The translations under genes were made by a program, and so were the position numbers. A DNA stretch of 64,000 nucleotides from positions 11,845,501 through 11,909,500 of the forward strand of contig NZ_CP069338.1 in assembly GCF_016859125.1 (NCBI RefSeq), read 5' to 3'. Position 1 is the stretch's first letter. Each line of letters opens with the position of its first letter. Under the pieces are notes generated by a model that worked only from the letters and a program-made list of their open reading frames with translations, had not been told where the DNA came from and made no database searches. This stretch comes from Archangium violaceum (GTDB taxonomy: Bacteria > Myxococcota > Myxococcia > Myxococcales > Myxococcaceae). Positions 57,590 through 63,354 of the stretch are shown piece after piece.

Positions 57590-58747
57590 TCAGCCCTTGA
57601 GCACGGCGATAGGCGTGAGCCGGAGGAGGGGCGTCACCAGCTCCGCCTCGTCTTCCAGCACCTCCGCGATGTCACGGTAGGCCTCTGGCGCCTCCTCCAC
57701 CAGGTCATGCACCCGGCCCCGGTCGAACACCACCCGGCGCAGCGCCTGCTCCAGCGCCGCAGGGCGGATGCGCGCACGGGCCTCTCCTCGCGTCAGCACC
57801 CTCCCCGCCCCGTGCGAGCACGAGCGGAAGGCCCTCGGCTCTCCCCTCCCCTCCACCACGTACGAGGCCGTTCCCATCGAGCCGGGAATCAAGCCCCGCT
57901 GTCCGGCCTCGAGCCCCACCGCGCCCTTCCGGTGGACGAGCAGCACCCGGCCCAAGTGCGTCTCCTCCTCCACGTGGTTGTGGTGTACGTCCACGCTCGC
58001 TCCCGGCTCCGGCTCGCACCCGAGCGCCTCGGCCAGCACATCCACCGCTCGTGCCGCGAGGGCGTCCCGGTTGGCTCGGGCGAACCGGCAGGCCCAGGCG
58101 ATGTCCGCCAGGCACGCGGCTCCCTCGGGAGAGTCGGTGCGAAGGCCCGGCAGCGAGCCCTCTCCCATCGAGGTCGCCACCCGCAGATGGTGCGAGGCAA
58201 TGGCTCCTCCAATGCCTCGCGAGCCCGAGTGGATGAGCAGCCACAGGTCTCCCCCCGCGTCCCGGTCCAGCTCCAGGAAGTGATTGCCACCCCCGAGCGT
58301 CGCCAGGTGCCTCGGCGCGAGGCGCTCCCAGTCCTTCTGGAGCCGGTGGGTGGACAGGCTCGCGGCCTGGACTTCGGGAGGCAGGGGCAGGCCCGCGCCC
58401 CGGTGCACGGCGTCTCCCACGGGCACCCGCCGCGCCACGGCCGCCATCAGCCGCTCCAGGTCCGCCCTCCCGAGTGACGCCGCCGGGAAGGCGAACCGGT
58501 GCGCACTGACGCCGCACCCCAGGTCGCCCCCGAGTGCACCCGGGACCACGGTGCGCTCGGTGGCAAAGACGGTTCCCACGGCCACGCCCTGGGCGACGTG
58601 GACGTCTGGCATCACCGCCACGTGCTCCACCACGTATGGCTGGCTGGCGATGTGTTGGAGTTGTTTCACCGCCCCCGCGGGCACCTCGCGCGCCCAGGCG
58701 AGGATGGGGACGGCTCCGGGCGGGCTCTCGAGGACATGAGGCATCAT
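57590..58747 (-). CDS. rtcB: RtcB-type RNA ligase
   Basis: 385 residues, within the range of short RtcB proteins. It joins RNA ends (2',3'-cyclic phosphate or 3'-phosphate to 5'-OH) using GTP and Mn. Visible ligands are Asp75 and Cys78 in GGDLGCGVSA, His156 in GGGNHFLEL and His173 in LIHSGSRGIG. The GMP-accepting His312 lies in SCSHGAGR. The start overlaps the rbfA stop by 4 bp (ATGA), so the two are translated as one operon. No archease or RtcR gene is seen here. Confidence 0.93.
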   Translation of the reverse strand: MMPHVLESPPGAVPILAWAREVPAGAVKQLQHIASQPYVVEHVAVMPDVHVAQGVAVGTVFATERTVVPGALGGDLGCGVSAHRFAFPAASLGRADLERLMAAVARRVPVGDAVHRGAGLPLPPEVQAASLSTHRLQKDWERLAPRHLATLGGGNHFLELDRDAGGDLWLLIHSGSRGIGGAIASHHLRVATSMGEGSLPGLRTDSPEGAACLADIAWACRFARANRDALAARAVDVLAEALGCEPEPGASVDVHHNHVEEETHLGRVLLVHRKGAVGLEAGQRGLIPGSMGTASYVVEGRGEPRAFRSCSHGAGRVLTRGEARARIRPAALEQALRRVVFDRGRVHDLVEEAPEAYRDIAEVLEDEAELVTPLLRLTPIAVLKG

Positions 58748-59124
58748 GACTCGTCTCCTTCCCCGCCAGGGGCCAGGCGCGGCGCCACGCCCACGCAGAC
58801 GAAGCGCAGGTGCGGGACGCGTTTGAGGTTCAAGCCGAGCGCGAGCTGCGAGCGGATGAAGCCCATCGCGCGGTCGAGCGCCTCCTCCACTGGGGCCGGG
58901 CCGGACTCCTGGCGCTCGGGAGGGAGGGTGAAGCCAATACGGGCATGGCGGCCGTCGGGCGACAGCTCGAGCGTCGTCACGACGACGCCCTCGAGCAGAG
59001 GGTCCGACAGCTCACCTCGGAACAGGAGGGACACCTCCTCGAAGAGGGTGGACTGGAGGCGCAGGTGGCGCGCCGGAACGGAAGCTTCTTCGGAAGAACG
59101 GGTACGGCGGGGTTTCGAGCTCAT
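58744..59124 (-). CDS. rbfA: Ribosome-binding factor A
   Basis: 126 residues from ATG 59124. KH-type fold with the RbfA pattern: LQSTLFEEVSLLFRGELSDP, then VVVTTLELSPDGRHARIGF and FIRSQLALGLNLKRVPHLRF. Acts in late maturation of the 30S subunit and 16S rRNA 5' end. Overlaps rtcB by 4 bp. RbfA usually sits with infB or truB; coupling to an RNA ligase is unusual. A longer upstream frame exists, but homology starts near here. Confidence 0.85.
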   Translation of the reverse strand: MSSKPRRTRSSEEASVPARHLRLQSTLFEEVSLLFRGELSDPLLEGVVVTTLELSPDGRHARIGFTLPPERQESGPAPVEEALDRAMGFIRSQLALGLNLKRVPHLRFVCVGVAPRLAPGGEGDES

Positions 59125-59452
59125 GGAGCGAACGGTTCCCTGGACGCCGCACCCGGACCCGGGCACGGCGCGCTGAGTCAGGAAAAGACGAGGCTCCACA
59201 CCGGCGCGAGGGCGCCGGAGTCAGCGGTCCGTTCTAGCGATGAAACGGAACGCGCCCGGTCACACGAGCGGCAGCGTGGAGAGTCCCGAGACACCGTTTC
59301 GCACACGTCCCATGGCACACCTCCCGCCGCGCGAGGTCCGAATGCGCGAGCTACCCAACGAAAATGAACCCGCCTGCTCCCTGTGTCAACGCCCGGTCTG
59401 GAGGGCCTCGGAAACCGTTGCCCCCGAGCGGGCAGGAACGCAGGATGACCGC

Positions 59453-59875
59453 ATGGTCGACAAACTGGTCCTCAGTGACGAGGAATGGCGGAAGCGTCTG
59501 ACACCCGAGGAGTTCCAGGTGCTGCGCCAGCACGGAACGGAGCGCCCCTGGGCGGGCTGTTTCGTCGGGACGAAGGAGCCCGGCACGTACGTCTGCGCCG
59601 GCTGCGGCAACCCGCTCTTCAAGTCGGGCGAGAAGTTCGAGTCCGGCACCGGCTGGCCCTCCTTCACCAAGCCCGTGCAGGCCGACGCGGTGACGGAGTA
59701 CCAGGATCGCTCGTACGGGATGATTCGCACCGAGGTGCGCTGCGGCCGGTGTGATGGCCACCTGGGACATGTCTTCCCGGATGGCCCGCCTCCCACGGGG
59801 CTGCGCTACTGCATGAACTCGGTGGCGATGAAGCACGTACCGGAGGGACAGCCCCTCCAGCTCGTCACGAAGTGA
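59453..59875 (+). CDS. msrB: Peptide-methionine (R)-S-oxide reductase MsrB
   Basis: 140 residues from ATG 59453. Zinc cysteines Cys48, Cys51 (CAGCG) and Cys97, Cys100 (CGRC), the substrate pocket [19 protein letters not shown], and the catalytic Cys120 in [12 protein letters not shown]. Repairs methionine-R-sulfoxide in oxidised proteins, cytoplasmic. The open frame continues upstream to 59240, but the extra residues do not belong to the family. The start has AGGA upstream. Convergent with the methyltransferase gene. Confidence 0.95.
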
Positions 59876-61381: not shown

Positions 61382-62497
61382 CTAGTGGGATGCGGAACCC
61401 GGGGGTTGGATTCGCTCCACCCGCTTCTTCAGTTCGGGATCATCCACGAAGCCGCTCCCCAGTGTGAGCGTCGAGAGACTCAGGGTGCGCTCGGACCCCT
61501 GCCCGGTCCCCTCCGCTTGCAGCGCCAGGCCCTTCCGTCGGGCCTCGAAGCTGGTGATGGTCTCCTGCCACGTCTTGCGGGTCTGTTCGTCCTTCGCGGC
61601 CGCCAGGCTCTGCCGGGCTTGCTGGAGGTTCTTGTCGAGGATCCGCAGGCTCTGCTGGGCACGCGACGTCTCGCCGAGATCCACGAAGGGGCCCTTGCCA
61701 CCCACGGAGAGCGCCAGGCGGACGAGCTGCCGTCCCCGCTCTCCCGAGGAGATCAGGGAGGCGAAGTCATTGCGCTGCGGCACGCCCGGGCTCCGGCTCT
61801 CGTGCGACTGGAGGATGAGGTCCACGGCGTTGCCCGCCTCCTTGGAGAGCAGGACGGCCTCGTCGTAGGGCACGGCCGCGAGCACCACCACCACGTCCAC
61901 CTTCTCCGCCTCGCGCAGTCTGCGAGCCTCGGCGATGGCCGCCTTCGCGGGTGGATGGCCCACGACGCCCGCCTGCTGGAGCACCGGCCCCTCGGGGGAG
62001 ATGCCGACCAGACCGAACTTCACCTCGCCCACCGTCACCACCGTGGAGGCGGGGAAGAGCCGCTTGCCCTTCGCGTCCACCAGGTTGGCGGACAGGAGTT
62101 TCATCTTCCTGCCCTTCGTCCTCTGGAGGAGGAAGCCCGTCCCGAGCGTCAGGTCGCGCGCGCCCACGGCCATGGCCGTGGTGCCCAGCGCGTCCATCTG
62201 CTCGAGCAACAGCCCGGCACGTTCCTTCTCCTTGGGGTCCGCTCCTGGCGTGGGGAATTTGAAGAGCGCGTTGCCCGAGTCCAACACCAGCACCGGCACA
62301 CCCCGCGCGCGCTCCTGCGAGAGGGCCGTCTTTCGTCTGGCCAGACCGCCAGACGGGTTGTGGCTTCAACCACAGGGGGCGATCTCGCCCCCGTTGTCTC
62401 CCGTGAAGAGGAGCACCACCTGCCGGGGCGCCGCGCCCGCCACCAGGGGCGTCAGCAGCAGCGCGAGCAGGGCCAGCAGCACCGGACGCAGCCTCAT
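61382..62497 (-). CDS. Candidate selenoprotein: exported metallophosphatase (5'-nucleotidase)-like protein with in-frame UGA at codon 44
   Basis: Frame from ATG 62497 to the stop at 61382 is 372 codons, open except for one TGA at 62368-62366. Signal peptide MRLRPVLLALLALLLTPLVAGA, then FTGDNGGEIAPCG-(UGA)-SHNPSGGLARRKT. Calcineurin-type features follow: VLVLDSGNALFKF, then TTAMAVGARDLTLG and VGEVKFGLVGISPEG. A coiled-coil C-terminus ends it. In related proteins I recall a PCGC-type motif with Cys at the UGA position. A perfect hairpin 10 nt after the UGA fits a SECIS. Read as stop, the gene would give a 43-residue secreted stub and an orphan frame from 62299. The start overlaps the CpoB-like gene (ATGA). 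Confidence 0.72.
62334..62355 (-). promoter_or_regulatory. Bacterial SECIS-like hairpin
   Basis: On the minus strand, CGTCTGGC (62355-62348) and GCCAGACG (62341-62334) pair perfectly around the loop GGTCTG. Eighteen nt separate the UGA from the loop. This falls in the 16-37 nt window known for bacterial SECIS elements, whose loop has a G in its first two positions; E. coli fdhF has AGGUCU. The arms use TCT, AGA and CGA codons, rare in this genome. Confidence 0.7.
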
Positions 62498-63354
62498 TTC
62501 TTCCCCTTCTTCGGCTCGGCCTTCTTCGCCTTGTCCAGCTCCGCCAGCCGGGCCTTCGCCGTCTTCGCCGCGTCCGACTTCGGGTAGCCCTTCACGAGCT
62601 CCTCGAGCGCCAGCCGCGACTCCTCCTGCATCTTCAGCTTCTTGAAGCAGTCCGACGAGCGCAGGTACGCGGACGGCGTGGCATCCGCCTTGGGGTACTC
62701 CTGCAGCAGCTTGCCGTACTCGAAGAGGGCCTCGCGGCACTTGTCCTCGGCGAAGTACGTCTCGCCCAGGCCGAAGTGCGCCTCGGCGGCCAGCGCGTCC
62801 TTGGGCCACTTCTTGAGGAACTCCGAGTAGAGCTGCCGGGCCACCGCCACGTCCCCACCCTTGGCCTTCTCCTGGGCCAGCGCGAGGAACTCCTTCTTGT
62901 CCGTGGGGCGCTTGAGCTCCTCGGCCTTCTTCCGGGCCTCGGCCTCCCTGAGGGCCTCCTCGCCCTTGAGCGCCAGCAGCCGCTTCTCCGTGGCCTCGTT
63001 CGTCTGCGCGAGCGCCGTCTCCAGCTCGCCAATCTTGTGGAGGTACGTCTCCACCTGGCCGCGCAGCTGGGCCAGGTCCTCCACCGTCTTCTGCAGCTGG
63101 ATGCCGATGTCCGCGCCCGTGCGGCGCGAGGCGGTGTCCAGGCTCCGCAGGGCCTTGGACACCTCGGAGATCTTCTCGTCGATGCGCGGCAGCGTGGCGT
63201 CGAGCTGCGCACGCGTCTGCTTCAGCTCTTCCTGGAGCTGCGCCTGGGAGGCATCGAGCTTCTCGATACGGGTCTCCAGCGCACGCCCGCGATCCGCGGG
63301 GTAGAAGCAGCCGGAGAGCGCGAGAGGGAGGGCGATCAGTGCAAGCCTTCGCAT
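62494..63354 (-). CDS. CpoB/YbgF-like lipoprotein with coiled coil and TPRs
   Basis: 286 residues. Signal MRRLALIALPLALSGC predicts lipidation at Cys16. Residues about 25-125 form a long coiled coil, and about 140-275 form TPR-type repeats (ARQLYSEFLKKWPKDALAAE, then EALFEYGKLLQEYPKAD). The C-terminus is lysine-rich. CpoB-type proteins link peptidoglycan synthesis with the Tol-Pal system; no tol or pal gene is visible here. The stop overlaps the start of the candidate selenoprotein by 4 bp, so both should be made from one transcript. Confidence 0.85.
   Translation of the reverse strand: MRRLALIALPLALSGCFYPADRGRALETRIEKLDASQAQLQEELKQTRAQLDATLPRIDEKISEVSKALRSLDTASRRTGADIGIQLQKTVEDLAQLRGQVETYLHKIGELETALAQTNEATEKRLLALKGEEALREAEARKKAEELKRPTDKKEFLALAQEKAKGGDVAVARQLYSEFLKKWPKDALAAEAHFGLGETYFAEDKCREALFEYGKLLQEYPKADATPSAYLRSSDCFKKLKMQEESRLALEELVKGYPKSDAAKTAKARLAELDKAKKAEPKKGKK

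Follow-up and report, generated by a model that had tools for sequence, protein, structure and literature searches.

UshA-like (COG0737) selenoproteins with a CxU motif were listed in the 2008 GOS survey (PMC2398784) and again in later reviews (PMC9312934, PMC13188914). NCBIfam holds two models for UshA-like (seleno)proteins, NF041198 (UshA_like_PCGU) and NF049981 (family 2). Members of the NF041198 family carry PCGU or PCGC, with Sec and Cys alternating, in a UshA-type N-terminal domain, and have a C-terminal cytochrome c554-type tetrahaem domain (profile positions about 400-519); full-length long-form relatives contain PF13435 and three to four CxxCH motifs. The NF049981 family shares the fold family and a Sec/Cys motif, but this motif is CxxU rather than CxU (PMC13188914).

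A frame related to these families, with an in-frame UGA, lies in the 64,000-nt stretch of DNA analysed here (the window), which comes from the 12.68 Mb genome of Archangium violaceum. The features of the locus are as follows.

61382..62497, minus strand: UshA-like selenoprotein (predicted), complete frame of 371 residues and stop, with Sec at 44
62366..62368, minus strand: in-frame UGA (TGA), codon 44, almost certainly read as selenocysteine (PCGU), from Sec/Cys alternation and from selA, selB, tRNA-Sec and selD in the same genome
62334..62355, minus strand: bacterial SECIS, 8-bp stem CGUCUGGC/GCCAGACG and loop GGUCUG (62342-62347), from covariation, folding and the bSECIS model
62432..62497, minus strand: part of the frame that encodes the putative N-terminal signal sequence (MRLRPVLLALLALLLTPLVAGA), read directly from the sequence
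62494..63354, minus strand: upstream YbgF/CpoB-like TPR lipoprotein gene with ATGA overlap, from TPR and YfiO-type Pfam matches; the pairing is conserved across the family

The window protein has PCGU at the same place as NF041198 members, but it lacks the tetrahaem domain and contains no CxxCH motif, and its metal ligands are further eroded. It scored 165.1 bits against NF041198 (cut-off 275), covering profile positions 12-375 of 519, and 39 against NF049981 (cut-off 140). All 20 relatives in set A2 matched NF041198, with a best E of 1.5e-54. An earlier note on this DNA had stated that no selenoprotein of this kind was described, which is wrong in view of the 2008 listing and the two NCBIfam models. 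It is plausible that automatic annotation misses the gene, because the protein scores below the NCBI cut-off. A literature search for myxobacterial selenoproteins, of limited coverage, returned no direct report of the UshA-like protein and no paper on a haem-less, ligand-poor UshA-like branch in Myxococcota. The deep-Sep paper does not mention the UshA-like family, and an older survey lists other selenoproteins of Anaeromyxobacter. What appears to be new here is the haem-less, ligand-poor Myxococcota branch tied to ybgF.

The frame contains a single TGA, which stands in the translated context ...TGDNGGEIAPCGUSHNPSGGLARRK.... The in-frame UGA, the Cys-Gly-Sec motif and the exact 4-bp overlap with the upstream gene, all reported in the earlier note, were found as described. 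The N-terminus is hydrophobic and resembles a signal peptide. Long open frames are cheap in a GC-rich genome, and the frame by itself is weak proof. Sequencing error was ruled out by the occurrence of the same UGA in many independent genomes. Conservation, the hairpin and the use of UGA as a normal stop elsewhere, for example at the end of the upstream gene, together led us to reject sequencing error, a pseudogene and code reassignment. A promoter/terminator scan found nothing.

To follow codon 44 through the family, homologues were collected and aligned across it. Matches to the window protein were present in 164 of 195 Myxococcota genomes, and most of the close ones contained exactly one TGA. 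Among 86 aligned distinct sequences, column 44 was U in 64, C in 21 and another residue in one. The one sequence with another residue, L123, belongs to a canonical phosphatase and does not contain the motif. Across family members in Myxococcota, column 44 is only Sec (UGA) or Cys. On a tree built with column 44 left out, the Sec/Cys state changed 10 times, with at least five of the changes forced by well supported branches. The alternation that the earlier note had proposed to look for is thus present, as are the Cys relatives that it had named. The latter include a PCGC paralogue in the same genome. This genome holds a long form, in which a UshA-like domain with PCGC is fused to a domain with four CxxCH motifs (C1:6496967-6498334 of G000, L133), and a short Cys paralogue at C1:1.695 Mb. 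A record named Comamonas sp. KCTC 72670 (L069) carries the myxobacterial gene with its neighbours and clusters inside Myxococcus; it is probably misnamed or contaminated.

The genome was searched for the selenocysteine machinery, the absence of which had been named in the earlier note as evidence against Sec. All four components were present, with matches above the curated cut-offs: tRNA-Sec (73 bits; anticodon TCA by ARAGORN), selA (577 bits), selB (326 bits) and selD (380 bits). The selD gene has an in-frame UGA of its own, within the motif CAGUAAK, and the genome therefore very probably decodes UGA as Sec outside the UshA-like gene as well. Counted from the search tables, selA occurred in 93 of the 96 genomes with a UGA-containing match. 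The three others are assemblies of 80-92% completeness, one of which has tRNA-Sec and selB, and another tRNA-Sec. In G094, a complete genome without selA, selB and tRNA-Sec, the orthologous gene has a Cys codon (TGC) and retains the same neighbours, the ybgF-like, rpmE (L31) and methylase genes; the congener G096 has the UGA form together with all three components. The same pattern as in G094, a Cys form and none of the three components, is seen in G109 (98% complete). In G147, a Cys form coexists with selA and selB, and conversion to Cys is therefore possible without loss of the machinery. In G162 (92% complete), the Cys form (L108) is still followed by GGCGGTCTGG after the codon; a tRNA-Sec match was found there and selA and selB were not, and a recent change from Sec to Cys is possible.

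The hairpin downstream of the UGA was compared with the bSECIS model, which requires a loop of 3-9 nt, a stem of 4-16 bp, a G in the first two loop positions, a spacing of 16-37 nt and an MFE of -7.5 or lower (PMC13188914). The hairpin begins 10 nt after the UGA and its loop 18 nt after it, and it lies within all of these constraints (6-nt loop, 8 bp, GG, 18 nt, -16.4 kcal/mol; z = -3.3 against dinucleotide shuffles). The stem was 88% paired over 34 distinct UGA sequences, and 20 cells were changed in both pairing partners (mean of the shuffles, 5.8), with none of 500 shuffles as high. The GGT of the loop, which is the second Gly codon, occurred in 62 of 63 UGA forms and in 0 of 21 Cys forms at the same column, although GGT accounts for just 361 of the 3952 Gly codons in these genes. 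The sequences are related rather than independent, and these counts therefore overstate how many separate events there were. Against synonymous recoding, the informative measures were stem pairing and the loop codon rather than folding energy: pairing of the window-gene stem exceeded the synonymous-codon null (p about 0.02), and folding energy discriminated poorly in single genes (z about -1.7 in the window gene). Neither the covariation nor the several separate Cys conversions rest on raw counts alone. The SECIS of E. coli fdhF has the same GGUCUG loop (GGTCTG) at codons +7/+8 after its UGA, with a different stem sequence and in a different protein. A search with Rfam at the gathering threshold over the whole window gave no match, which we list against the explanation favoured below. 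By comparison of sequences, the hairpin is a SECIS that directs Sec insertion.

One alternative is that the UGA is a real stop in a pseudogene, a truncated gene or an erroneous sequence, with the downstream frame translated separately or never. UGA does work as an ordinary stop elsewhere in the genome, and a shorter ORF could begin at the GTG at 62299. Yet 64 distinct sequences from many genera share this UGA and its hairpin, the frame is kept over 371 residues on both sides of the UGA, and Cys takes its place in genomes without selA, selB and tRNA-Sec. We consider a real stop highly improbable. The Sec/Cys alternation, the covarying hairpin and the complete machinery bear out the selenocysteine reading of the earlier note. 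Selenocysteine insertion at codon 44 is about as secure as sequence can make it, and this seemingly stop-broken myxobacterial gene is almost certainly whole, with its stop read as selenocysteine.

The fold of the protein was examined by structure prediction. The model had a pLDDT of 87.7, with the loop of the PCGU motif as the least certain part of its core (about 69). In structure comparison it resembled E. coli and cobra 5'-nucleotidase (Z about 31, rmsd 2.2-2.8 A) and SoxB (Z about 30), the latter with weak likeness in sequence. The window protein shares with E. coli UshA and CD73 the fold of the metal-binding domain; these enzymes have no PCGU and possess a 5'-nucleotidase C-terminal substrate domain that is absent from the window protein, and the two-metal site that is intact in UshA is mostly lost. 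SoxB is a thiosulfohydrolase, an envelope enzyme of sulfur chemistry with a dimanganese site, intact ligands and no CxU.

Compared with solved nucleotidases, the metal-site motif DxH is DNG in the window protein, GD is GN, GNHE is GARD, a later His is A208, and GHxH is SHES. The comparison covered eight site residues, namely seven metal ligands and the catalytic His, of which only two, D34 and H232, are kept, the latter being one His of GHxH; H36, D76, the Asn and His of GNH, and H208 are all replaced both here and in the Myxococcaceae relatives. A Pfam search gave no metallophosphatase match to the protein, because the metal ligands are lost. The term metallophosphatase-like, used in the earlier note, thus holds for the fold and fails as a description of the active site. 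Three distant Sec members (L104, L106 and L107) keep five of the eight residues (D34, H36, D76, H208 and H232), showing that the metal site and PCGU can coexist in one protein; they would be useful for testing which of the two came first. The Cys preceding column 44 (Cys42) is invariant (83 of 83), and the ligands were probably lost stepwise on a scaffold with an unchanging Cys-Gly-(Sec/Cys). The window protein has no Cys other than Cys42 beside Sec44, and a count of two is also found in 45 of 57 Sec relatives.

Nearly all Sec orthologues, down to about 36% identity, have a ybgF-like gene immediately upstream. Such a gene also adjoins four Cys orthologues (L046, L095, L101 and L108; genomes G094, G109, G147 and G162), and the Cys paralogues are located away from it. 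Further genes around the locus were named from their translations. Upstream of the ybgF-like gene, on the same strand, lies a chemosensory cluster that extends just beyond the window (L132 4000-14000, C1:11909000-11919000) and consists of CheR with TPR (window 63429 onward), CheB, CheA and two methyl-accepting proteins, with a Pal/OmpA-type gene after it, further upstream. An RtcB-like RNA ligase gene (57590-59199, minus strand) shares a few bases with the end of an RbfA-like gene. A gene for an MsrB-type methionine sulfoxide reductase (59240-59875, plus strand) lies within 2 kb of the selenoprotein gene; among the loci read, such a gene was near one other member only (L098), most stretches being too short to tell.

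We propose that the gene encodes a secreted envelope Sec protein with a dead hydrolase site and a Cys-Gly-Sec redox pair, an explanation that as a whole we regard as probable. SelB would decode the UGA at codon 44 as Sec, directed by the hairpin that starts 10 nt downstream. The product would be exported and located in the envelope, and the mature protein would consist of one domain, folded like the metal-binding domain of UshA, CD73 and SoxB. An active two-metal phosphoesterase is very unlikely, because nearly all of the metal ligands are replaced. Cys42 and Sec44, the only side chains available for thiol-type redox chemistry, would sit in the loop that follows strand 1, at the entrance to the former active site, where metallophosphatases hold their first metal ligands. 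The pair most likely cycles between selenol/thiol and selenenylsulfide in a redox reaction of the envelope, as suggested by the motif, the ligand loss and the domain fusion. Electron exchange would agree with the architecture of the wider family, in which this domain is joined to a tetrahaem c554-type cytochrome; the window protein has no such haem domain, and its electrons would come from, or go to, a separate partner. The conserved operon structure makes a link to the upstream YbgF/CpoB-like lipoprotein likely.

Two other readings accept Sec insertion. The protein could be a hydrolase or sulfur-transfer enzyme in which Sec acts as nucleophile or metal ligand, as in a SoxB-like enzyme, with no redox couple. 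The fold is as close to SoxB as to UshA, the NCBIfam SoxB and 5'-nucleotidase models match the protein weakly, and the distant PCGU members described above retain five site residues. We nevertheless consider this reading unlikely, given the replaced ligands of the window protein and its Myxococcaceae relatives, the tetrahaem cytochrome fusion in relatives, and the invariant preceding Cys, which is more in keeping with a dithiol-type pair than with a lone nucleophile. Somewhat less likely still, the protein could have a mainly structural or regulatory role, as a catalytically inactive nucleotidase domain that maintains the envelope together with the YbgF/CpoB-like lipoprotein and uses Cys-Sec as a redox switch. 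The loss of catalytic residues and the overlap with the ybgF-like gene, conserved across several families, speak for such a role; against it, the UGA and the SECIS are kept over large divergence, the Cys paralogues sit away from ybgF, and Sec is costly and usually catalytic. A bolder form of the favoured redox explanation, which we put forward tentatively and hold to be rather doubtful, is that the branch forms a distinct haem-less selenoprotein class, a dead 5'-nucleotidase fold rebuilt as a Sec-dependent envelope oxidoreductase for outer-membrane or division upkeep, nearly universal in Myxococcaceae/Archangiaceae and locked behind the YbgF/CpoB-like gene.

A widespread myxobacterial gene, probably missed by the standard annotation model, is almost certainly a full-length selenoprotein gene. 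One branch of the UshA-like family lacks both the haem and an intact hydrolase site, and this suggests that redox chemistry is the core function of the PCGU domain. The gene is present in aerobic, genetically tractable myxobacteria such as Myxococcus xanthus, and the function of the family is thereby open to a simple gene-deletion test.
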